Source: Acidipropionibacterium jensenii DSM 20535 (GTDB lineage Bacteria; Actinomycetota; Actinomycetes; Propionibacteriales; Propionibacteriaceae). From it: a DNA stretch of 55,517 nt. Under the pieces are notes generated by a model. The model did no database searches and had not been told where the DNA came from. It worked only from the letters and a program-made list of their open reading frames with translations. Each line of letters begins with the position of its first letter. The first letter of the stretch is position 1. Location of the stretch: the NCBI RefSeq assembly GCF_000425285.1, contig NZ_KE384345.1, forward strand, positions 2,094 through 57,610. Direction: 5' to 3'. The position numbers and the translations under genes are program-made. Shown here piece after piece: positions 1 through 9,209 of this stretch.

Positions 1-553
1 CCACGTCGGCACCCGAGGGGCCTCCGTCAACGGCTGGACACCGGTCAACTACCAGGGCACCAACGCCTGGATCTCCAGCGACTACCTGTCGCGGACCAAA
101 CCCGCCACCAGCACCGGCAGCAACGGCTCCTCAGGCAGTGGCTCCTCGGGGTCGAGCACCCCGACCTCCTCCTGGGCCGCACTCACCGCCAACGGCTCCT
201 CCGGCCTGTCCGGTCTGCGCCCCAGCGCCAAGGGAATCGTCAACCGGACCATCACGGCATTCCCGCAGATCAGGACGATCTACGGAATTCGCGCCGACTC
301 GATGGCCGACCACCCCAGTGGCCACGCGGTTGACCTGATGCTCCCCCGCGGCAGCAGGGACGCCGCCCTGGGTCAGCAGATCGCGGCCTACTTCCGCGCC
401 CACGCCCAGGAGCTAGGGGTGCAGTACATCATGTACAATAAGCAGATCTGGAACATCTCGCGCGACTCGGAGGGCTGGCGTGCGGTCGCCGACCGGGGCT
501 CGGAGACCGCCAACCACATGGATCACGTGCACATCACCACCATCTGGGACTGA
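1..553 (+). CDS. Secreted SH3b-domain protein with ARB_07466-like C-terminal domain (5' partial)
   Basis: The reading frame is open from base 2 to the TGA at 551-553, so the gene starts upstream of the window. The visible 183 residues begin with the end of a bacterial SH3 domain (GTRGASVNGWTPV ... GTNAWISSDYLS), a cell-wall-binding fold. A Ser/Gly/Thr-rich linker of about 35 residues follows, then a C-terminal domain with H-A-V-D-L-M-L and H-M-D-H-V-H motifs. That histidine/aspartate pattern resembles the ARB_07466-like domain found at the end of exported actinobacterial proteins, and suggests metal binding. The export signal would lie upstream and is not visible. The role is probably cell-wall binding or remodelling; the exact activity is unknown. 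Confidence 0.8.
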   Translation, partial: HVGTRGASVNGWTPVNYQGTNAWISSDYLSRTKPATSTGSNGSSGSGSSGSSTPTSSWAALTANGSSGLSGLRPSAKGIVNRTITAFPQIRTIYGIRADSMADHPSGHAVDLMLPRGSRDAALGQQIAAYFRAHAQELGVQYIMYNKQIWNISRDSEGWRAVADRGSETANHMDHVHITTIWD

Positions 554-650: not shown

Positions 651-726
651 GTCCCGATCGTCCAGCGGCCTAGGACATCGCCCTTTCAAGGCGGTAACGC
701 GGGTTCGAATCCCGTTCGGGATACCA
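651..726 (+). tRNA. tRNA-Glu (TTC), CCA encoded
   Basis: The 76-nt cloverleaf starts GTCCCGA and ends TCGGGAT-A-CCA. The anticodon loop CTTTCAA gives anticodon TTC. The T-arm is GCGGG-TTCGAAT-CCCGT. The 3' part from 676 to 726 is repeated exactly at 9159-9209, so this gene is the integration target of the adjacent element and its 3' end was restored by the incoming DNA. Confidence 0.95.
676..726. repeat. attL (51-bp direct repeat, tRNA-Glu 3' end)
   Basis: This 51-bp segment is identical to 9159-9209. The base before it (A675 versus C9158) and the base after it (G727 versus A9210) differ, which sets the repeat limits. Confidence 0.92.
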
Positions 727-729
727 GAG

Positions 730-769
730 CGAACGGCCTAGTCAGATGAACAATCGGCTAGGCCGTTCG
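730..769. terminator. Hairpin between tRNA-Glu and integrase end
   Basis: Perfect 12-bp arms CGAACGGCCTAG (730-741) and CTAGGCCGTTCG (758-769) flank a 16-nt loop. It lies between the convergent tRNA-Glu and integrase genes and could terminate both. It is element DNA, so it was brought in with the insertion. Confidence 0.55.
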
Positions 770-786
770 TCACGTTCAGACAGCGG

Positions 787-808
787 CGTGCAACGCTCGT
801 GCAACGCT
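787..808. repeat. Tandem arm-type repeats near attL
   Basis: Two adjacent 11-bp copies of CGTGCAACGCT lie about 60 bp inside attL and overlap the integrase stop codon. A matching pair with one base changed per unit lies inside attR at 9049-9070, in the same orientation. Paired short repeats on both sides of a core are typical arm-type binding sites of tyrosine integrases. Confidence 0.6.
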
Positions 809-1911
809 CAGGATCGCCGTATGCCCCGGCGCCGTCTCGTCGGCCTCATCGCCGCGGCCCTCATGGCCTCCATCCGATCGGCCACCTGGTCGAGGTCGGC
901 ATCGAACAGGTCGGAGTAGACATCGAGCGTCATTGCCGCGGACTTGTGGCCCAGCATGCCCTGAATGACCTTGACGTCAGCTCCGGCCGCCACCGCGAGG
1001 CTGGCCGCTGTGTGCCTCAGCTCGTGCGGGGTCAGCCCCTCGACGCCGGCAGCCTTCGCGGCCGCGTCGAACCATGACCCGCGGGCCGACGCGTTGCGCA
1101 GCGGCCCGCCGCGCTCCCCGGGGAACAACAGGTCCTCGGGCTTCTTGCCGGCCGTCCTGTCCCTCATCGCCCGGTCGAGGAACGACGGGTAGGCCACGGT
1201 GCGGCTCGTGCGGCCCTTCGGCAGCCCCCAGGCCATGCCCATCGAGACGTTCGTCACCGACTCATCAACGCGGAGCCTGCGCCGGCCCAGATCGATGTCC
1301 TCCACCTTGAGGGCCGCGAACTCGCCCCATCGCAGACCGCAGTAGGCCAGCACGTGGATGACATCCCCCCAGGGGCCGGCTGCCCGGGCCAAGTCCTCCA
1401 CCTGGCCCACGCTGAGATAGCGACGCCTCCTCGGTTCGGCACGCGGATAGGAGACACCCTTCGCCGGGTTGACGACAAGACGATTCGCGATGACGGCATG
1501 GCCGAGGATCCCAGACAGGACATTCCCGATCTTGTGGACGGTGGCCGGCGCGAGCTCGTATCCGGAGATCCACTCCTGGATCGCCTCGGTGGTGACGTCG
1601 CCCAGGGCAACACTCCCCCACCGCGGAGCGATGTGGACTTTGACGATGTTCTCGTTGCGCTCGCGCGTCTTCTGCGACCAGTCGGGGTGAGCGTCGATCC
1701 ATGCGGCCGCCTCCGCGGCGACGGTGCCGCGGGTCCGCTTCGGGTCGATCCAGACGCCGGTGACCTGGTCGGCGGTCTGCTGGTCGATCCAGCGTTGCGC
1801 GTCGATCTTCCGGGGGAAGTTCTGGTAGTGGGCGTGACGCTCGCGATCGAAATATCGGGCCTGCCATGTGACCGTGCCCGACTTCAGAGTCCGCTTGTAG
1901 ATGCTGGCCAT
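808..1911 (-). CDS. int: Tyrosine recombinase / integrase
   Basis: This site-specific recombinase would integrate and excise the element at tRNA-Glu. The 367-residue protein has an N-terminal arm-binding AP2-like region (about 1-60), a SAM-like core-binding domain (about 65-155) and a catalytic domain (about 165-345). The catalytic residues are visible, numbered from the upstream GTG: Arg195 in CGLRWGE, His297 and Arg300 in HELRHT, His323 in LGHKS, and Tyr333 in DVYSDL. The C-terminus is very basic. The ATG chosen overlaps the TGA of the upstream repressor gene; an in-frame GTG one codon earlier (1914) is an equal alternative. The gene is co-transcribed with the repressor and abuts attL. Confidence 0.93.
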   Translation of the reverse strand: MASIYKRTLKSGTVTWQARYFDRERHAHYQNFPRKIDAQRWIDQQTADQVTGVWIDPKRTRGTVAAEAAAWIDAHPDWSQKTRERNENIVKVHIAPRWGSVALGDVTTEAIQEWISGYELAPATVHKIGNVLSGILGHAVIANRLVVNPAKGVSYPRAEPRRRRYLSVGQVEDLARAAGPWGDVIHVLAYCGLRWGEFAALKVEDIDLGRRRLRVDESVTNVSMGMAWGLPKGRTSRTVAYPSFLDRAMRDRTAGKKPEDLLFPGERGGPLRNASARGSWFDAAAKAAGVEGLTPHELRHTAASLAVAAGADVKVIQGMLGHKSAAMTLDVYSDLFDADLDQVADRMEAMRAAAMRPTRRRRGIRRS

Positions 1912-2378
1912 CACTCACCGTGGTTCATCTCACGTAGCAGTCTGAGGTACGCCTCCCGCGCGTCCGGATCGATCATCCCGGGGCTGTAGTCCCCCTGATC
2001 GATCCGCTCCGACGAGTCCTCGAGTTGGTGCATGAGTTCCATCAGTCGCTCTGCGGTGTTGCCTCGGGCGTGGACGTTGAGCTCCCTAACCACGGAACCA
2101 TCGTGATCGGCAAGCACCCGTACGTCGTAGGTATCGAGCACCCACGCCAGCGCCCAGACTTCGACCCATCGCAATGGGCGCGAACCAGCCTCGACCTTCG
2201 CGACTGTCGTCTGCCGCCACGGGTCGGGCAAGAGCTCGCTGACCTGCTCGGCGACTTCGCGCTGAGACAGTCCGAGTCGCTCGCGTTGGGCACGGAGTTG
2301 CTGCCCGGTGGTGCTTGCCAGCTCTCCGAGGAGCTCTCTGTAGCGGTCCGGATCGCCCTTGTCATTCCCCATGGGCAT
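1911..2378 (-). CDS. XRE-family transcriptional regulator (element repressor)
   Basis: This 155-residue protein carries an XRE-type helix-turn-helix near residues 25-80 (QQLRAQRERLGLSQREVAEQ ... TTVAKVEAGSRPL). The C-terminal half is mostly helical with no recognised domain. It is transcribed with the integrase (start/stop overlap) and divergently from the excisionase-like gene. Its expected job is to hold the early promoter at 2398-2426 shut. Two starts are possible (2378 or 2372); neither has a clear Shine-Dalgarno sequence, so a leaderless or near-leaderless transcript is likely. Confidence 0.82.
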   Translation of the reverse strand: MPMGNDKGDPDRYRELLGELASTTGQQLRAQRERLGLSQREVAEQVSELLPDPWRQTTVAKVEAGSRPLRWVEVWALAWVLDTYDVRVLADHDGSVVRELNVHARGNTAERLMELMHQLEDSSERIDQGDYSPGMIDPDAREAYLRLLREMNHGE

Positions 2379-2395
2379 ACTTTAACGCCATCATC

Positions 2396-2428
2396 GGTTG
2401 CAACCCAGAAAACCCTGGCATAGTATGC
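2396..2428 (+). promoter_or_regulatory. Early promoter with two overlapping dyads (lysogeny-type switch)
   Basis: A strong sigma-70-like promoter is visible: TTGCAA (2398-2403), a 17-bp spacer, then TAGTAT (2421-2426). The palindrome GGTTGCAACC (2396-2405) covers the -35 box, and GCATA-G-TATGC (2418-2428) covers the -10 box. The region is much more AT-rich than its surroundings. The two dyads are candidate operators, but they differ from each other in sequence, so they may bind different proteins. Confidence 0.6.
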
Positions 2429-2473
2429 AATCAACCCACACGGGAATATACCGATCCGATGAAAGGTTCACTC

Positions 2474-2755
2474 ATGAACAAGGCGAGCAAGTCTCGAGGA
2501 GCCGCCAGCCGGGAAGCTACCGGGCTGCCCAACCACGAGGTTCTGAACACCGCCCAGGTGTCAGAGATGACTGGCGTCTCCCAGGTGACCCTCCGGAACT
2601 GGAGGCATCAGAGCACCGCCACGGGCAAGGGCGTCGGCCCGAAGTCCTTCAAGATGGCCGGCGTCGTCCGCTACCGCCGGTCCGATGTTGAGCAGTGGAT
2701 CGATGACACCTACAACGCCACGGTGCGCGGCGAGGGTGTCGTGGTGTCCCGATGA
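2474..2755 (+). CDS. xis: Excisionase-like MerR/HTH_17 DNA-binding protein
   Basis: A 93-residue protein with one winged helix-turn-helix of the MerR/excisionase type (about 32-85): LNTAQVSEMTGVSQVTLRNW, then a wing with VVRYRRSDVEQWID. It probably acts as recombination directionality factor and/or early regulator. ATG 2474 is chosen because GAAAGG lies 7 bp upstream; an in-frame ATG at 2459 is less well placed. It is the first gene after the switch promoter and overlaps the next gene by ATGA. Confidence 0.75.
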   Translation: MNKASKSRGAASREATGLPNHEVLNTAQVSEMTGVSQVTLRNWRHQSTATGKGVGPKSFKMAGVVRYRRSDVEQWIDDTYNATVRGEGVVVSR

Positions 2756-3321
2756 ACGCGATCCCGACCGCCGCGAATGGCGGCCTGCTGGCCTACCTGC
2801 TCGCCGCCCTGGTGCTCGTCGCCATGGCCGCGCTCAGCCGTCCCCGCTGCTCTGTCGCCCTCGACACCCCCGGCCCCCACAAGAACAACCCCGGCAACGT
2901 CTCGATCTTGGCGGAGAGCGACGTCACCGGGGCCAACCCAACCCCCAACAAGGAGAAGGACATGACCGAGACTACCCGCCTGTACCGCCTGGAGGTGGCC
3001 TACCCGGCCGCCGCGCTGACCACTGACGGGGCGCTTGACCCCGACTGGGTGCCCGACACGTTCACCCCGACCGAGCAGGTGCCGGCCTTCTACTGGCCGA
3101 AGACGGACCGGATCTACAAGTCACGATCCGCCGCGACCGACCGGGCCGCACTGCTCCGCCGCTACGGCTGCACCGTCACCATCCTGGAAGCCACCCCCGC
3201 GTGGGAGAACATCCCGACCGCGAACGCCCGCCGACACCGCGAGCGCACCGCGGCCACGATCCGCCACAGCATCGACAGCGTGTTCACCGACCGCGACCAG
3301 CTCGGGGAGGCCCAGGCATGA
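2752..3321 (+). CDS. Hypothetical protein, possible N-terminal membrane segment
   Basis: The frame encodes 189 residues. Residues about 10-29 (GLLAYLLAALVLVAMAAL) form a hydrophobic segment, and the C-terminal 120 residues are soluble and Arg/Thr-rich. A second in-frame ATG at 2962 is preceded by AGGAGAAGG at ideal spacing, so the functional product may be the 119-residue MTETTRLYRLEV... form, or both may be made. The first ATG overlaps the excisionase stop. I do not recognise a family. It belongs to the early operon of the element. Confidence 0.6.
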   Translation: MNAIPTAANGGLLAYLLAALVLVAMAALSRPRCSVALDTPGPHKNNPGNVSILAESDVTGANPTPNKEKDMTETTRLYRLEVAYPAAALTTDGALDPDWVPDTFTPTEQVPAFYWPKTDRIYKSRSAATDRAALLRRYGCTVTILEATPAWENIPTANARRHRERTAATIRHSIDSVFTDRDQLGEAQA

Positions 3322-3719
3322 AGTGGAACGGTAAGGGCAAGACGATTGAGTACCTGCCCAACGATGTGATGGCGAGGATAAAGGCCCAGCGTCCCCGGTG
3401 GGCCGGCCGACTCCGGGCCTTCTACCAGAAGAACCCGAACGACCCCACGGCCTCAATGCACTGGATCCGAGAGTTCCCCATCACGTCGGGGCACAAGGAC
3501 ACTGAGGTTGACCTGGTGCGCTGGGGGGACTTCACCTGTGACGGGGCCGTCACCGAAGACTCCTTCGAGACCATCGAGCTGGTGGGCGTGGACGGCGGGA
3601 CGTGCTTCTTCACCCGGGCCGAGCTTCCCGCGCTGATCGCCGCGCTCCAAGAGATCGCGGCCGACCTTGACGCCGACCACCTGCCCGAGCACTCCGACGA
3701 GGAGGCCAGCCATGCCTGA
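3318..3719 (+). CDS. Hypothetical protein of the element's early operon
   Basis: A 133-residue soluble protein starting MKWNGKGKTIEYLP, with a basic N-terminus and an acidic C-terminus (DADHLPEHSDEEASHA). The start ATG overlaps the previous stop (ATGA) and has GGGGAGG upstream at 3304-3310. No domain is recognised. Tight coupling to its neighbours argues that it is real. Confidence 0.65.
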   Translation: MKWNGKGKTIEYLPNDVMARIKAQRPRWAGRLRAFYQKNPNDPTASMHWIREFPITSGHKDTEVDLVRWGDFTCDGAVTEDSFETIELVGVDGGTCFFTRAELPALIAALQEIAADLDADHLPEHSDEEASHA

Positions 3720-3900
3720 CCGTGTCCTCACCGAGGCTGAGCATCAGCTGATCTGCAACGTCCTCGACAACGAGGTGCACCGACTCCAAGCCCTGGAGGC
3801 CGACGGGCTGCAACCGTCCACGCCGTCCGCCCAGCTGGAGCGACTCACCGACATGGTGTTCGCCGCCGACTCGATCATCCTGGAGGCCCACCATGGCTGA
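3712..3900 (+). CDS. Small hypothetical protein
   Basis: A 62-residue, mostly helical acidic protein (MPDRVLTEAEHQLICNVLD...). It overlaps the preceding gene by 8 nt and has GAGGAGG just upstream. The heptad-like spacing of hydrophobics suggests a helical hairpin. Function unknown. Confidence 0.6.
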   Translation: MPDRVLTEAEHQLICNVLDNEVHRLQALEADGLQPSTPSAQLERLTDMVFAADSIILEAHHG

Positions 3901-4111
3901 CGGTCTGAAACTGCTTGGGATCGTCTCCCCGGAGAACTGGACTGTCGCCGTGATCGACGGGCAGCCCGAGGAGGTCGTGAACCTGGCCGGCATGGCGCAG
4001 ATGGTCCGCTCTGCACCGATCGGGCAGCGCCGGGCACTACGCCGCCTCCGCCGCCTCCTGAACGACGACCACTACAGCCGCCTCCTGGCGGAGCTGGAGC
4101 GCACGAAGTGA
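3893..4111 (+). CDS. Small basic hypothetical protein
   Basis: A 72-residue protein overlapping the previous gene by 8 nt and the helicase gene by 4 nt (GTGA). The second half is Arg-rich and helical (GQRRALRRLRRLL), consistent with nucleic-acid or helicase contact. Its place directly before the replicative helicase suggests a loader or accessory role, but that is only inference. Confidence 0.6.
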   Translation: MADGLKLLGIVSPENWTVAVIDGQPEEVVNLAGMAQMVRSAPIGQRRALRRLRRLLNDDHYSRLLAELERTK

Positions 4112-5652
4112 CCGCCACTGAGCACCACAGGGCCCCTGCCGACGATCCGCCGGCAGGGGCCACTGGCCGGCTACCGCCCAACGACCACGATGCTGAGCGA
4201 GCCGTCCTCGGAGCCGTCATGCAAGGGGTCGACCCGGCCGAGCTGAGTCTTCAAGCTGACCAGTTCGACGATCCAGACCACGAGGCAATCTGGGCCGCTG
4301 CCTGCCGGCTCCGGCTCGCAGACAAGCCAGTGACCGTGGTCACCATCGGCGACGCACTAGCCGCAGACAATGTGCACCTGAACGTCAAGGGCGGACGCCC
4401 CTACCTGGCCGGACTGTGGGAAGCCGGTCTCCCAGTCGACGCCCAGGCGCACGCCGACATCGTCCGGCGTCATGCACTGGATCGCGAGACCCTCAAGCTC
4501 AGCCGGCTCATCGCCCAGGACATCAGCGAGGGCCACGACCCAGGCCGTCACGTATCCGCCCTCGTCGAGATCCGCGAGGGCGGCAGCCCTGTCCACAACC
4601 GCGCCATCGCCGGAGGAGAGTTCATATTCACCGCCTCCGAAACACCGTCGGCATGGTGGGGCCGAGGGACGGAAGTACTTGGTGCCACCGGTGAGTCCCT
4701 GGTGATCGCGGGCCCCCAGGGCACAGGCAAGTCCACTATCGGCCAGCAGCTCGCACTCGGCCGAGTCGGCCTGACCGACTACTCCGAACTACTCGGGTAC
4801 CCCATAGCGCCAGACCCTCGCGGCGTCCTCTACCTGGCGTGTGATCGCTCGATACAGGTCGCCCGCTCCATGCTCCGCATGGTTCCCAAGTCAGCCAGAG
4901 ACATCGTCAACCGGCGCATGGATGTATGGCGGGGGCCGCTACCCAAGTCGCTGAACGATGACCCGCTGGCCCTCGTCAAGCTCGGCCGGACATTCCACCG
5001 GGGGACCATCGTGGTGGACTCCCTCAAGGACACCACCCGTGCCCTGAAAGAGGACGACGGTGGATCCGCCTACAACATCGCCAGACAGCACGCCCTCGCT
5101 GAAGGCTTCGAGATCATCGAGCTGCACCACACGAAGAAGCGCCCGACGGACGTCAGGGGCAGGCCATCGGTGGATGACGTGTACGGATCCACCTGGATCA
5201 CCTCAGGCGCAGGTTCAGTGCTGCTGCTGGACGGCCAGCCCGGTGACCCAGTCGTGAAGCTCTTCCACGTCAAGCAGCCCATGGATGACGTCGGGCCCCT
5301 CACCATCGAGCATGACAACCGGACCGGGCGGACCCACGTACGGTTCGGCGTCGACCTGGTGCAGGCGGCACGCGGACGAAACGGGATCACCAACGCTGAC
5401 GCTGCCCGGCTGCTCTTCGAGTCAGACTCTGCCAACGACCGGAAGAAGGCAGAACGGCGCCTCACCGTCCTGGTGAACAAGGGTCTGCTCGACAAGATCC
5501 CCGGCGACAGCGCCACTCAGACAGCCTCGCTGTGGGTCGCGAAGGACCTTCCCGGACACCTTCCCGCGGGGGGTCAGAACGGGAAGGCATCCCGGCACCT
5601 TCCCGACCTTCCCGGCAAACACCTGCAAGTTGTACCTGACAAGGGGAAATGA
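4108..5652 (+). CDS. DnaB-N / AAA_25 (RepA-like) replicative helicase
   Basis: A 514-residue replication protein with a GTG start overlapping the upstream stop. Residues about 24-125 resemble the DnaB N-terminal domain (DHDAERAVLGAVMQG...). Residues about 178-415 form a RecA-like hexameric ATPase of the AAA_25/RepA type: Walker A GPQGTGKST (202-210), Walker B TIVVDS (300-305), and a HHTKK sensor motif (340-344). A winged-helix-like region follows (about 424-480). The last 35 residues (LPGHLPAG ... HLPDLPGKHL) are a by-product of the iteron array embedded in the gene's 3' end. It probably binds those iterons and starts replication of the excised element. Confidence 0.85.
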   Translation: MTATEHHRAPADDPPAGATGRLPPNDHDAERAVLGAVMQGVDPAELSLQADQFDDPDHEAIWAAACRLRLADKPVTVVTIGDALAADNVHLNVKGGRPYLAGLWEAGLPVDAQAHADIVRRHALDRETLKLSRLIAQDISEGHDPGRHVSALVEIREGGSPVHNRAIAGGEFIFTASETPSAWWGRGTEVLGATGESLVIAGPQGTGKSTIGQQLALGRVGLTDYSELLGYPIAPDPRGVLYLACDRSIQVARSMLRMVPKSARDIVNRRMDVWRGPLPKSLNDDPLALVKLGRTFHRGTIVVDSLKDTTRALKEDDGGSAYNIARQHALAEGFEIIELHHTKKRPTDVRGRPSVDDVYGSTWITSGAGSVLLLDGQPGDPVVKLFHVKQPMDDVGPLTIEHDNRTGRTHVRFGVDLVQAARGRNGITNADAARLLFESDSANDRKKAERRLTVLVNKGLLDKIPGDSATQTASLWVAKDLPGHLPAGGQNGKASRHLPDLPGKHLQVVPDKGK

Positions 5653-5697
5653 CCTTCCCGGCAAGCTTCCCTACCTTCCCGGACGCCTACCTTCCCG
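5546..5697. repeat. Iteron array: seven direct and one inverted CCTTCCCG units
   Basis: ACCTTCCCG occurs at 5546, 5558, 5597, 5606, 5652, 5673 and 5689, and its reverse complement CGGGAAGG at 5580-5587. Spacings run from 9 to 46 bp. The array spans the helicase 3' end and the following non-coding stretch, the usual place for an iteron-type replication origin next to its initiator gene. Confidence 0.75.
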
Positions 5698-5770
5698 TTT
5701 CCTCCCCCCCCTATAGGGGGAGGGAAGGGGGTAGGTCGGGCACCCCAACCAACCACCAAGAGGACACATC
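5698..5770. other. Candidate replication origin core next to iterons
   Basis: Directly after the last iteron comes a run of eight C, then TATA, then five G, giving the perfect palindrome CCCCCTATAGGGGG (5707-5720), followed by a strongly strand-biased purine tract. Together with the iterons this is the best candidate for the element's origin. No DnaA box was recognised. Confidence 0.45.
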
Positions 5771-5995
5771 ATGACCAGCTTCGCCCCCGCCACCTACCCG
5801 ATGCACGGAGTGTTCCGCCAGCAGGACGGCCACTCCTACGAGCTACTCCTCGCCGGATACGAGACCGACGACGACGGATCCACCGAACCCGTGTTCATGG
5901 GAGACCGCGAGGAGACCGGATCCCTGCTCAACCTCGGAGACATCGGCAACGACCTGGCAGCCATCCGGCCCGGCTTCCCCCCGAACGCATCATGA
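5771..5995 (+). CDS. Small acidic hypothetical protein
   Basis: A 74-residue protein (MTSFAPATYPMHGVFRQQDG...) with AAGAGGACAC upstream of the ATG. It is acidic in the middle (ETDDDGSTEP). It overlaps the next gene by ATGA. No domain recognised. Confidence 0.6.
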   Translation: MTSFAPATYPMHGVFRQQDGHSYELLLAGYETDDDGSTEPVFMGDREETGSLLNLGDIGNDLAAIRPGFPPNAS

Positions 5996-6180
5996 GGCTC
6001 CGACGCTGCAACCAGTGCGGCAAGCCGACTGCACCCCGCATCAACCGCTGCCCCGACTGCGGAGGCGAGATCCGCGTCACCATCACCGAACCCGGACACG
6101 GATACATCGACTACGTGATCCGGCAACCGAGACCAGCGAACGGATCGTCAACCGATCGTCAACGAATCGTTCGACGATGA
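5992..6180 (+). CDS. Small zinc-ribbon protein
   Basis: A 62-residue protein with two CxxC knuckles, Cys6/Cys9 (CNQC) and Cys20/Cys23 (CPDC), arranged as a zinc ribbon. The C-terminus is basic. The fold suggests nucleic-acid binding or a small regulator. It overlaps the upstream gene by 4 nt. Direct repeats of GATCGTCAAC sit inside its 3' end and may serve as operator sites for the downstream operon. Confidence 0.62.
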   Translation: MRLRRCNQCGKPTAPRINRCPDCGGEIRVTITEPGHGYIDYVIRQPRPANGSSTDRQRIVRR

Positions 6181-6305
6181 CCGCCGCCCGTTTTTTTGGG
6201 AGGCCGGCCGGCTCAGACACCGCCGATGGCCCCCCCTGGTCTTTTTTTCCTCGAATCGATCGTCTCGACGTGGGGGGCCGGTCGTGGCTGACGATCAGCC
6301 GGTGA
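6177..6305 (+). CDS. Possible 42-residue ORF with two TTTTTTT tracts
   Basis: An ATG at 6177 overlaps the zinc-ribbon stop as ATGA and opens a 42-codon frame ending at 6305, overlapping the next gene's start. It contains two T7 tracts (6191-6197 and near 6243-6249), each read as Phe-Phe with TTT codons, which are rare in this genome. The stretch could instead be an untranslated terminator/promoter region. Coding status is doubtful. Confidence 0.22.
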   Translation: MTAARFFGRPAGSDTADGPPWSFFPRIDRLDVGGRSWLTISR

Positions 6306-6523
6306 GGCGGCGGAGGGGCCGGCCTTCGACCACCGCGGCCACGGTGGAGGAGGTCGAGTGGCTGTTGTCGTTCGGGGAGTCCTTGGCGGGGGTCTGCTCG
6401 GCGTTGCGGCTGTCTGAGCACGGGCTGTATGTGGCGTTGCAGCGTGGTGGCCGGCTGGACCTGTGGCGGCGGTTGAGGCCGGTTGACCATCTCGATGGGG
6501 AGGCGGACCCGTGGCTTCGGTGA
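6284..6523 (+). CDS. Helix-turn-helix protein, resembles small-terminase N-terminus
   Basis: A 79-residue protein with a GTG start and GGGGGG 5' of it. A basic tail (RRRRGRPS) is followed by a helix-turn-helix (EEVEWLLSFGESLAGVCSAL, then SEHGLYVALQRGG). The GRP-S then GESL-x3-C pattern resembles DNA-binding heads of phage small terminase subunits and resolvase-like HTH proteins. It is the first gene of the capsid operon, so a packaging or late-regulatory role is possible; this is inference. Confidence 0.6.
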   Translation: MADDQPVRRRRGRPSTTAATVEEVEWLLSFGESLAGVCSALRLSEHGLYVALQRGGRLDLWRRLRPVDHLDGEADPWLR

Positions 6524-6855
6524 TGCTGTTCGGGGTGCCGATCGATGCCCAGGAGCTCGCCGACGTGATGGATGCCGAGGGTCTGCGCCGGCAGTTGAGT
6601 GGGCGGGGCCGGGAGACCGGCCGGCTGGATCTGATCGCCCGTCGGGCCCGGGAGTTCGCCGTTTTCGGCGAATCTGATCCTGGCCGCTGGTCTGGGGGTG
6701 CCTGGGTGACGTTGACTGAGTGGGCAGGCAGTTGCGGGGTGCCTGTGCGGACGGCCCGGGACTGGGCTGCCGCGTCGAAGATCCGGGCCCGGAGGTCGGG
6801 CCGGACGTGGCTTGTGGTGGCGGACGAGGTGCCGCCGACGAGAAGGAGACGCTGA
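6511..6855 (+). CDS. Winged-helix DNA-binding protein upstream of capsid
   Basis: A 114-residue protein with a GTG start and GGGGAGG at good spacing. The C-terminal half holds an HTH_17-like domain (WVTLTEWAGSCGVPVRTARD, then an Arg-rich wing and TWLVVADE) and ends in Arg-Arg-Arg-Arg. It overlaps its neighbours on both sides. It could regulate the late genes or recognise a packaging site. Confidence 0.6.
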   Translation: MASVMLFGVPIDAQELADVMDAEGLRRQLSGRGRETGRLDLIARRAREFAVFGESDPGRWSGGAWVTLTEWAGSCGVPVRTARDWAAASKIRARRSGRTWLVVADEVPPTRRRR

Positions 6856-7958
6856 TGGATGAGACGGCAGAGCTGGGGGCGGCCGAGCAGCTGCTCTCTG
6901 CGGTGCGGGACCTGGCCGCGAGTACCGGCGAGGCTGGAATCAGCCGCGCGGAGCGTGTGACCCGGTCGCGGCGGGCTGCTGAGGCTCTGCGGGACGTGCC
7001 CCAGGTGCTGAACGGGCTGGACCCGTACGCCGACGGGCAGCACAGCCGGGTGCGCGACCTGGTGCTGACCGCCGAGGGGCCGGTGGCGTTCAACCCGGAC
7101 GGTCCCGGAGTCGATCATCAGGGCCGGAACATGCCGCAGGCGTTCGGCGGTGAGGCTGCGGTCCGTGCGGCCCAGGACAGGCTTCGGGTGGCCTCCCAGC
7201 TGGCCGACGTGCGAGCGCGGGCCGCCGGGCTCGGCTTCGCCGACGTTGGCGAGGTGTTCGTGGCGCCGCCGGCCGCGGAGCTGCCTGGTCTGGCCGCATG
7301 GCTGGACGGGTACGCCCAGCCGGTGACCGCCTCGTCGGCTGCGAAGCTGATGACGCCGGTCGCCTGGGACGCGTTCCCGGCCGGGGTGATCAACCCGGGC
7401 ACCTCGAACCCGGCCGATGCTGGAACCGACCTCTCGCAGCTGGAGGGCGACGAGAAGCGGTACACGCTGGCCGGCTGGTCCACCAGCCGGTCCGCCCAGG
7501 TCGTGAACTGGGGGGTGAACGCCCTGGCCGAGCTGGACCGGCTCGGTACGGCGGTGGCTGACGTGGCACTGGAGGCCGAGCTGATCCGTCAGCTGGCCGA
7601 TGGTGCGCCGGCTGCCGCCAACCTGGAGGCTGCGGAGGTCGCGTGCGGGCAGGCATGGCCGTCGGGTGCGGACCTGATTCTGTGCCATGCGGCCGACCGG
7701 CCGAAGATCGTCCGCTCCTATGCGGCCGCCCAGCTGGGGCCGGCCGATCGCCCCCTGGTGCTGGCCACCGGCGGGGTCCGCGAGCCGGGAACCGCCTACG
7801 TGGTCGCGATGGGCGGGGTGTGGCTGGAGGCCTCCCCGATCGAGGCGTTCTCCATGATCGATCCGAAGGTACTTGGGACCCAGCTCGGATGGCTGCGCTA
7901 CGGGCAGGTGACCCGTCGGGCCGCCGGCGTCGTTCAGAAAGTGGAGGTGGCGGCATGA
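6855..7958 (+). CDS. HK97-fold-like major capsid protein
   Basis: A 367-residue protein. ATG 6855 is chosen for the AAGGAG 6-7 bp upstream and the TGATG overlap with the preceding gene. Residues 1-125 are mostly helical, like the scaffolding (delta) domain of HK97-type capsid proteins. Residues about 160-367 follow the HK97 order: E-loop-like beta segment (SQLEGDEKRYTLAGWST), long spine helix (about 208-250), A-domain (about 268-330) and a final strand (LGWLRYGQVTRRAAGVVQKV). No protease gene is nearby, so the N-domain may be retained or cut by a helper's enzyme. The call rests on pattern similarity, not an alignment. An encapsulin is the main alternative, but the phage-type context argues against it. 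Confidence 0.75.
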   Translation: MDETAELGAAEQLLSAVRDLAASTGEAGISRAERVTRSRRAAEALRDVPQVLNGLDPYADGQHSRVRDLVLTAEGPVAFNPDGPGVDHQGRNMPQAFGGEAAVRAAQDRLRVASQLADVRARAAGLGFADVGEVFVAPPAAELPGLAAWLDGYAQPVTASSAAKLMTPVAWDAFPAGVINPGTSNPADAGTDLSQLEGDEKRYTLAGWSTSRSAQVVNWGVNALAELDRLGTAVADVALEAELIRQLADGAPAAANLEAAEVACGQAWPSGADLILCHAADRPKIVRSYAAAQLGPADRPLVLATGGVREPGTAYVVAMGGVWLEASPIEAFSMIDPKVLGTQLGWLRYGQVTRRAAGVVQKVEVAA

Positions 7959-8293
7959 GCAGGAATCGTTGGGATGATGTGGTGCCGAGGCCGGCACGTC
8001 GGGCCCATGTGGCTCCCGGGGGGCATCGCTGGGACGACCTGACCGCACCGGTGATGTCGGCGATCCCGCCAGCGGCCAGGAGCAAGCGGGCGGTGATCCG
8101 GCTGGGGCCGGCGGCCCCGGTCGTGGATCTGGACCCGGAGATTGTCGGACGGGCTATGAGCCTGCCTCGTGATCGTCGGAACATGCTCAGGGCCGAGATT
8201 CAGCGTCGGGCGTCGGCGGGTGCGCAGAATCGCCGTCAGGTGGACTCTGACGGTTGGGTCGGCCTATTCCTCCTGGAGCAGGAGAAGCGATGA
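7955..8293 (+). CDS. Hypothetical basic protein after capsid gene
   Basis: A 112-residue protein whose ATG overlaps the capsid stop (ATGA). It is rich in Arg and Pro and contains an RWDD motif twice (near residues 5 and 25). The C-terminal 50 residues are helical (RNMLRAEIQRRASAGAQNRR). Position suggests a head-associated or packaging role. No family recognised. Confidence 0.6.
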   Translation: MSRNRWDDVVPRPARRAHVAPGGHRWDDLTAPVMSAIPPAARSKRAVIRLGPAAPVVDLDPEIVGRAMSLPRDRRNMLRAEIQRRASAGAQNRRQVDSDGWVGLFLLEQEKR

Positions 8294-8595
8294 GCGGCTC
8301 TGAGAACCCCGGGGGCGGCCGGGAGGACGGCGGAACGGTGAACGGCCCTCAGATCGACGCTGGCGAGCCCTCGGAGGCACTGGAGCCCGGCTCGTTCGAG
8401 TACTACCGGGCCGAGCACCCCGAGGCCGGCCCGCGGCTGTGGCGGTTCCTCGCTGACGCGTACCGGGACAATGGCGGTCGTTCGGAGATGAGCCTGGATG
8501 AGGTGCAGGCCGCCTCCCCTGGTGGTGAGGTCAACCGGGCCCGCCGGCTGATCGCCGCCGAGCTGGGCCGGACGTTCCAGTTCGAGGAACGATGA
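8290..8595 (+). CDS. Hypothetical acidic protein, last gene of capsid operon
   Basis: A 101-residue protein overlapping the previous stop (ATGA), with GGAG upstream. The N-terminus is a disordered Gly/Glu-rich tail and the rest is helical and acidic (FEYYRAEHPEAGPRLWRFLAD...). It may pair with the basic protein encoded just before it. No family recognised. Confidence 0.58.
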   Translation: MSGSENPGGGREDGGTVNGPQIDAGEPSEALEPGSFEYYRAEHPEAGPRLWRFLADAYRDNGGRSEMSLDEVQAASPGGEVNRARRLIAAELGRTFQFEER

Positions 8596-9158
8596 ACAAC
8601 TGAATCCTCCGGTGGGGGGTCCGGCCTGACGGCTAACCCTTTCGAGACCCCCTGACCGGTTCCGCGCCGCGGAGTGGGCGGCGCAGCGGAGTGCCCCCGT
8701 CCTGGTGCTGGAGCGGGGGCACTCCCACGCCCAGGGGGGGTGGCTCACGATGGGCCACCTGGGCACGGTCGTTACGACCGTGGTTGGCCGACCAGCTGCG
8801 CTGCCATTACGGCAGTGGAGGGCAACTGTTCGGTTCATCCGAACGGCTGCCCGGGGGTGGGCATCTGGTGCCACCCCCTGGTGGAAGCTTTTCCCGGCGC
8901 CGGGAAGTTCTTCCCCGATCGGGGAAGAACTGTGTGTGCCGGGTGGCATCCTGGTGGTGCAGTCACACGGCTGCTCTGGCAGGGGTGTTCCGACCCTCTT
9001 CCAGTGGCCTCCGTCGCTTGGAAACCGGCGGGGGCCACACCTCTGTTCCGTGCAACTCTCGTGCAACTCCCAGCCCCGGAAACCGGGGTGCATGGACGAC
9101 ACGGACAACGCCACAAACCCGCCTATAGAGCCGTTCGGCCCTCTGGCTTCGGGTGTCC
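8596..9158. other. Palindrome-rich non-coding end of the element (candidate cos/pac region)
   Basis: No gene is supported here. The stretch holds a 12-bp-arm hairpin (GGAGTGCCCCCG at 8688-8699 with its complement at 8714-8725), a 9-bp-arm dyad centred on T8773 (8764-8782), a 16-bp perfect palindrome TTCCCGGCGCCGGGAA (8891-8906) and, directly abutting it, a 24-bp perfect palindrome (8907-8930, arms GTTCTTCCCCGA). Such density is unusual and suggests protein-binding DNA: a packaging site, a regulatory site or part of the attP arm. Confidence 0.55.
9049..9070. repeat. Tandem arm-type repeats near attR
   Basis: CGTGCAACTCT (9049-9059) and CGTGCAACTCC (9060-9070) match the pair at 787-808 except for the ninth base or the last two variable bases. 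They lie about 90 bp inside attR and are in the same orientation as the attL-side pair. Confidence 0.58.
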
Positions 9159-9209
9159 CATCGCCCTTTCAAGGCGGTAACGCGGGTTCGAATCCCGTTC
9201 GGGATACCA
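9159..9209. repeat. attR (51-bp direct repeat, 3' tRNA-Glu fragment)
   Basis: This exact copy of 676-726 contains only the anticodon arm to CCA end of tRNA-Glu. It is the original chromosomal 3' end displaced by the insertion. Confidence 0.92.

Follow-up and report, generated by a model that had tools for sequence, protein, structure and literature searches.

A small tRNA-Glu-integrated, satellite-type element with a capsid-like gene in Acidipropionibacterium jensenii DSM 20535

We analysed 55,517 nucleotides of Acidipropionibacterium jensenii DSM 20535 (assembly GCF_000425285.1, contig NZ_KE384345.1, positions 2,094–57,610), hereafter the window, which is a stretch of contig C17 of the genome denoted G000. 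Positions 676–9209 hold an integrated element with defined ends at a tRNA-Glu gene, and there is good support for describing it as a mobile element of the satellite type that carries a capsid-like gene. We observed its integration structure, its gene content and, in three small elements of different hosts, the conservation of a pair made up of a helix-turn-helix (HTH) gene and the capsid-like gene. The element is probably an intact phage satellite, integrated at tRNA-Glu and of the capsid-carrying actinobacterial kind that resembles the phiRv elements or the capsid-forming phage-inducible chromosomal islands (cf-PICIs); it would contribute its own HK97-type shell and leave the rest to a helper.

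Integration site and gene content

The element is bounded by an exact 51-bp direct repeat (676–726 and 9159–9209, with a start-to-start distance of 8,483 bp), and the left copy forms the 3′ part of the tRNA-Glu gene; a preliminary description of this DNA had claimed a 51-bp att duplication in this gene. Pairs of GTGCAAC units lie just inside both ends, a position that would suit integrase arm sites; the arm-like pair was found 2 times in the window, where 0.00 occurrences were expected, for a pattern derived from the repeat itself. Four congeners (G001–G004) were compared at this locus. In G003, the left flank adjoins a tRNA-Glu gene that matches 49 of the 51 att bases, and tRNA-Asp follows 280 bp on; in the window, tRNA-Asp lies 191 bp after attR. 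Judged by this comparison, the G003 locus is an empty integration site. The left flank also adjoins tRNA-Glu in the other three of the four congeners, with 49–51 att bases matched and 0.9–2.6 kb before tRNA-Asp. Because of the 51-bp repeat at tRNA-Glu, the arm-like pairs and the empty site in G003, we regard the region as an integrated element with defined ends. Its features are as follows.

651–726, forward: tRNA-Glu(TTC), the integration target, whose 3′ part is attL (ARAGORN, Rfam tRNA)
676–726, forward: attL, exact 51-bp repeat
787–807, forward: putative integrase arm-type site, two GTGCAAC units
808–1914, reverse: tyrosine integrase, 368 aa (PF00589 5.7e-24; phrog_1 2.4e-68)
1911–2378, reverse: repressor-like HTH_31 protein, 155 aa (PF13560 9e-9)
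2459–2755, forward: excisionase-like HTH_17 protein, 98 aa (PF12728 3.8e-8; phrog_66 2e-8)
2962–3321, forward: small open reading frame (ORF), with a longer reading from 2752 (phrog_5253, unknown function, 9e-7)
3318–3719, forward: small ORF without a significant family in PHROGs or Pfam
3712–3900, forward: small ORF without a Pfam match
3893–4111, forward: small ORF without a significant Pfam match
4108–5652, forward: replicative helicase with DnaB-N and AAA_25 (RepA-like) domains, 514 aa (PF00772 2e-11; PF13481 4e-9; phrog_6012 5e-87)
5546–5697, forward: seven ACCTTCCCG iterons at and just 3′ of the helicase gene end
5771–5995, forward: small ORF without a Pfam match
5992–6180, forward: zinc-ribbon-like protein (Zn_ribbon_3 1e-4, below the gathering score)
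6284–6523, forward: small ORF without a Pfam match
6511–6855, forward: HTH DNA-binding protein directly upstream of the capsid-like gene (HTH_17 0.0018, below gathering)
6855–7958, forward: capsid-like protein, 367 aa, with a putative N-terminal region and HK97-like core
7955–8293, forward: small ORF overlapping the capsid-like gene, without a significant family match
8290–8595, forward: small ORF without a family match
8596–9158, no strand: right end with hairpins and no called gene
9049–9069, forward: putative integrase arm-type site, a pair of GTGCAAC units
9159–9209, forward: attR, exact 51-bp repeat

Fifteen ORFs were called in the element; ten were scanned with PHROGs and Pfam, and five (3712–3900, 3893–4111, 5771–5995, 5992–6180 and 6284–6523) with Pfam only. 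The integrase, the repressor/excisionase switch and the helicase with iterons named in the preliminary description are all borne out by these matches (PF00589, HTH_31 and HTH_17; the DnaB N-terminal and AAA_25 domains; the sevenfold ACCTTCCCG array). The helicase is up to 43% identical to mycobacteriophage helicases across 61% of its length. The iteron occurs 7 times in 5546–5697 and 9 times in the whole window against 0.65 expected, and the array is the probable replication origin. By their position, the 7955–8293 and 8290–8595 products could be head-completion proteins. At the right end, hairpins cover 90 bases of 8596–9158, and 100 shuffled sequences gave a mean of 23 and a maximum of 88; a packaging site was considered here and dropped, since the shuffles were exceeded only marginally.

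To the left of tRNA-Glu, window positions 1–120 match 2, 3, 4 and 6 places in G003, G004, G002 and G001, respectively, which are mostly 215–240 bp apart. The window, which is cut at this point, appears to start in a tandem-repeat gene, the copy number of which may differ from one species to another.

Related elements and homology of the capsid-like protein

We searched for homologs of the capsid-like protein in overlapping genome samples; the family, order, class and phylum searches scored the first 5–10 candidates per genome, and the rarity they indicate is approximate. The protein was found in 1 of 57 relatives (A. jensenii itself), in 10 of 198 genomes of the family at E 0.1 (full-length in itself and G160, with weak and short matches in the other eight), in 2 of 391 genomes of the order (itself and G160), in 8 of 394 genomes of the class at E 0.01 (itself, a near-full-length protein in G567, and otherwise weak and short matches) and in 1 of 396 genomes of the phylum (itself). 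A search of the G567 family returned G567 alone (1 of 22 genomes). The weak short matches, namely those in 8 of the 10 genomes of the family search and 7 of the 9 match rows of the class search (one being another place in G567), were left out of the set of relatives.

The homolog in G160, which belongs to another genus of the family, is full-length (E 1.3e-35, 39–40% identity), and that in G567, from elsewhere in the class, is distant (E 1.1e-8) and full-length to near-full-length. The three proteins align across their full length. The G160 gene lies in a 7.9-kb element flanked by a 23-bp repeat (L014 3366–3388 and 11266–11288), the right copy of which is in tRNA-Pro. This element encodes an integrase 27% identical to that of the window, an excisionase-like protein and an HNH-like ORF (both recognised by eye, the latter without family support), and a protein, probably for replication, whose HTH_36 match falls just short of the gathering score. 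Its HTH gene and capsid-like gene are followed by two small ORFs, the second of which matches the head-tail connector family phrog_2796 (E 1.2e-3). The G567 element spans 9.1 kb between 53-bp repeats (94%) at tRNA-Thr; its integrase and excisionase are 42% and 28% identical to the window counterparts, and it also carries a repressor-like ORF, a second recombinase, a replication-initiation-like protein, an HTH gene and the capsid-like gene. Short repeats like the window iterons occur inside the probable replication genes of both elements (L014 5988–6128 in G160 and L023 11724–11858 in G567).

An HTH gene stands directly upstream of the capsid-like gene in all three elements, and the window HTH protein is 35–36% identical to both relatives. 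The preliminary description had proposed a search of actinobacterial genomes for the same gene order at tRNA-Glu; the HTH–capsid pair was recovered in G160 and G567, at tRNA-Pro and tRNA-Thr.

The 6855–7958 product is encoded by an intact frame, and its family is likely to share homology with HK97-type capsids. The G567 protein matches the major head protein family phrog_2263 (E 3e-4). We compared a profile of the window, G160 and G567 proteins with a reference of 13 HK97-type capsids by hhalign, using 59 unrelated decoy proteins and 200 column shuffles as controls. With the three-protein profile, the alignment ran end to end and its global score was 21.1 (252 collinear columns, P 5e-4); the highest decoy scored 9.2 and the highest shuffle 11.5. 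For the G567 protein by itself, the local score was 34.4 (P 4e-4), compared with maxima of 26.0 for the decoys and 21.2 for the 200 shuffles. An earlier run with 14 capsids (local P 0.02) is superseded by the 13-capsid runs. The preliminary description would have been overturned by a fold unlike that of HK97; the profile comparison points, by remote homology, to HK97-type capsids. Remote homology via the two relatives suggests this label and does not prove it.

Several results weigh against a satellite with a shell of its own. The capsid-like protein alone has no match in Pfam, PHROGs, NCBIfam or PDB sequences, and against the capsid reference it is not significant (local 15.7, global 1.5); the same holds for the G160 protein alone (local 15.0, global 1.1). 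The family local score of 26.0 only ties with the best decoy, and the decoys are single sequences, whereas the family comprises three. The hhalign probabilities are low (3.6% local, 13% global and 33% for the G567 protein), and the family has no significant match to any single capsid subgroup. Single-sequence AlphaFold2 models of the whole protein and of residues 119–367 were unusable (mean predicted local distance difference test scores of 37 and 33).

Searches with the window protein alone gave no relative in phage records, plasmid records or viral contigs, and tblastn of all three capsid-like proteins in phage records gave nothing. A pattern-plus-tblastn search of viral and genome contigs with capsid queries confirmed no relative (some pattern matches failed tblastn), nor did a helicase-query search of viral contigs. 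We recognised no description of this capsid-like family in the literature searched.

The absence of a direct family match for the window protein and the low hhalign probabilities would also suit a protein that is not a capsid, carried by a small integrative replicon that moves by other means. We consider this very unlikely in view of the PHROG match of the G567 relative, the controlled profile test and the connector-like ORF in G160.

Packaging genes, the island and the prophage of the same genome

No significant match to a terminase, portal, protease or tail family was found among the 15 ORFs, and no connector was recognised in them, by the PHROGs and Pfam scans described above. Weak HTH matches to small-terminase families were obtained for the 6511–6855 product (phrog_57, E 0.15) and the excisionase (phrog_141, E 0.17), and the HTH proteins of the relatives matched phrog_57 at E 0.0012 and 0.0068; MerR- or excisionase-type families score equal to or above the small-terminase PHROGs for these HTH proteins. 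Neither portal nor terminase was recognised in any of the three small elements. Thus, the earlier claim of a capsid-like gene without any other virion or packaging gene stands as far as terminase, portal and tail are concerned, but the capsid label comes by remote homology only and the two downstream ORFs could be head-completion genes. Actinomycete integrative and conjugative elements (AICEs) and other integrative conjugative elements are defined by an FtsK/TraB-type or relaxase transfer gene, and by Pfam none of the 15 ORFs carries a domain of this sort.

Contig C1 of the same genome carries a 10.19-kb island that is integrated at tRNA-Thr and bounded by 48-bp repeats (G000:C1 62591–72825, from L051 12591 to L052 2825). 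It encodes an integrase, an excisionase, an AAA_25 protein, TerL, an SPP1-type portal, a Phage_capsid protein (7e-41) and an adaptor, together with an HNH-like ORF recognised by eye; a Pfam scan of ten island ORFs revealed no tail family. From this gene content, the C1 island is classified as cf-PICI-like. An array of long perfect palindromes lies between its last called gene and the right att site (L052 1991–2777); it has 7 stems of at least 8 pairs, against a mean of 0.05 and a maximum of 1 in 100 shuffles, and is a possible packaging or regulatory site. Contig C7 carries a tailed, probably siphovirus-like prophage cut by the contig end (G000:C7 1–34500; L065, L066), with tape measure, capsid, adaptor and integrase genes. 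Its adaptor shares 43% identity with the island adaptor, and the prophage is a plausible helper for the island.

For tblastn, eight queries were drawn from the C1 island and the C7 prophage: TerL, the portal, the tape measure, the HNH-like protein, two capsids and two connectors. None matched the window element or the G567 element at E 0.1, and G160 gave two short weak matches (E 0.066 and 0.016). The capsid-like gene showed no tblastn likeness to the capsid of the C1 island or of the C7 prophage, and no evidence connects the C7 capsid with the element.

The element integrase and excisionase are 53% and 41% identical to their C1 island counterparts. The presence in one genome of this related 10.2-kb island, which has TerL and portal, speaks for the element being a defective remnant of a prophage or cf-PICI-like island that has lost terminase and portal. 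We consider this origin clearly unlikely. The HTH–capsid pair is kept at three different tRNA genes in genera sharing only the family or the class, which speaks against a recent deletion remnant; the called ORFs have intact frames and lie close together; and the TerL, portal and capsid proteins were among the eight queries without a match in the window element. The preliminary description would likewise have yielded to full prophages in the relatives, and the G160 and G567 elements proved equally small. The terminase, portal and tail genes that mark a complete prophage were not found in the element by the scans used here, and the sole PhageMin_Tail match of G000 lies on contig C7.

A scan of G000 gave two TerL_nuclease matches (in one gene) and one SPP1_portal match, all on contig C1 and none in the element; some kinds of terminase and portal lie beyond the reach of these models, and the C7 prophage escapes both. 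In G567, matches to both models lie on contigs other than that of the element, and PhageMin_Tail gave 2 matches; the four congeners and G160 gave no PhageMin_Tail match. Two further results count against the proposed helper-dependent satellite: no gene for redirecting the packaging of a helper was recognised in the element, and no match to TerL_nuclease, SPP1_portal or PhageMin_Tail was obtained in the G160 genome, which hence holds no resident helper of those families.

A single recognisable virion-type gene could also have been kept as an interference factor, either as a decoy subunit that poisons or resizes the helper shell while the element travels in helper-made heads, or mainly as an immunity gene. 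Satellites that manipulate helper capsid size are described (PMC11389934), and the absence of phage-record matches for all three capsid-like proteins agrees with such a role. We nevertheless judge it unlikely, given that the protein aligns over its full length across the three relatives and that two small genes follow the capsid-like gene in two of the three elements, one being connector-like in G160. PADLOC, applied to 8 of the 15 ORFs of the element, found no defence family, which also speaks against it without being a direct test of the idea.

Known systems and the proposed life cycle

Staphylococcus aureus pathogenicity islands (SaPIs) and related phage-inducible chromosomal islands (PICIs) resemble the element in size and in their int-rep-xis-replication layout. 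The element differs from them in having no clear terS or capsid-redirecting gene and a capsid-like gene instead. With the cf-PICIs it shares the nature of an integrated satellite-like element with its own capsid-like gene, and the genome also harbours the cf-PICI-like C1 island, whose integrase is related; unlike the cf-PICIs, the element has no recognised portal, terminase, protease or connector. cf-PICIs carry capsid, protease, portal, connector and terminase genes, as recounted in PMC10690885. The Streptomyces satellites MulchRoom and MiniFlayer likewise have actinobacterial hosts and their own capsid gene, but as described there they carry genes for a portal and for the small and large terminase subunits and have no known primases (PMC10690885).

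The preliminary description held that the element fits none of the known classes, which is too strong. A 2023 Mycobacterium survey defines candidate PICIs by the combination of integrase and capsid, phiRv1/phiRv2-like elements included (PMC10654092), and the element has the integration machinery of this type. By their descriptions, these Mycobacterium elements are similarly small (phiRv1 9.3 kb, phiRv2 10.8 kb), with att repeats and an integrase. The five genes of phiBN42_1 with an assigned function are integrase, excisionase, primase, prohead protease and capsid, with no portal or terminase among those five; the portal/terminase/capsid type is represented in the same 2014 paper by phiBN44_1 and phiMCAN_1 (PMC3986857). 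As far as that description goes, phiBN42_1 resembles the element in its excisionase and primase, in a capsid gene (capsid-like in the element) and in the absence of portal and terminase among the function-assigned genes, and differs in the listed prohead protease, for which no counterpart was recognised in the window element. The Mycobacterium elements also occupy other hosts, and the window capsid-like protein has no family match, with only the G567 relative reaching a PHROG capsid family. Capsid-carrying small elements are therefore already known from Mycobacterium; the window element stands apart from them by the lack of a recognised protease and a capsid-like protein beyond the direct reach of family models. 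In a survey of prophages from actinobacteria, many elements below 15 kb are expected to be satellites, with little experimental proof (PMC10023795).

For the phage satellite that we favour, the integrase and excisionase would move the element and the helicase would replicate it from the iterons. The element would supply its own HK97-type shell protein, which would replace that of the helper or be mixed with it, and a helper phage, infecting or resident, would provide portal, terminase, tail and lysis. Induction by the helper would be followed by shell formation and packaging by the helper's motor, and the HTH gene (6511–6855) may act as a late regulator or packaging factor. The small heads and the reliance on a helper proposed in the preliminary description are inferred.

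A bolder version, which we regard as a long shot, assumes a shell-only satellite class in Actinomycetes that uses a foreign portal and terminase. One self-sufficient shell protein, with a scaffold-like N-terminal region fused to the HK97 core, would then do without a protease. The C1 island, with portal and TerL and no recognised tail, could be the donor, which would make the element a satellite of a satellite, and the C7 prophage would give the tail. We retain the island as a possible donor because SaPI3 provides a documented case of one satellite depending on a second (PMC11389934).

The element bears on how much of the virion a satellite must own. If the shell protein alone is kept in the three elements, capsid supply would be separable from the portal and packaging genes, and the limits of capsid-portal compatibility would become testable. 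With a cf-PICI-like island, a tailed prophage and a capsid-only element in one genome, A. jensenii DSM 20535 offers a natural system in which to ask who supplies what.

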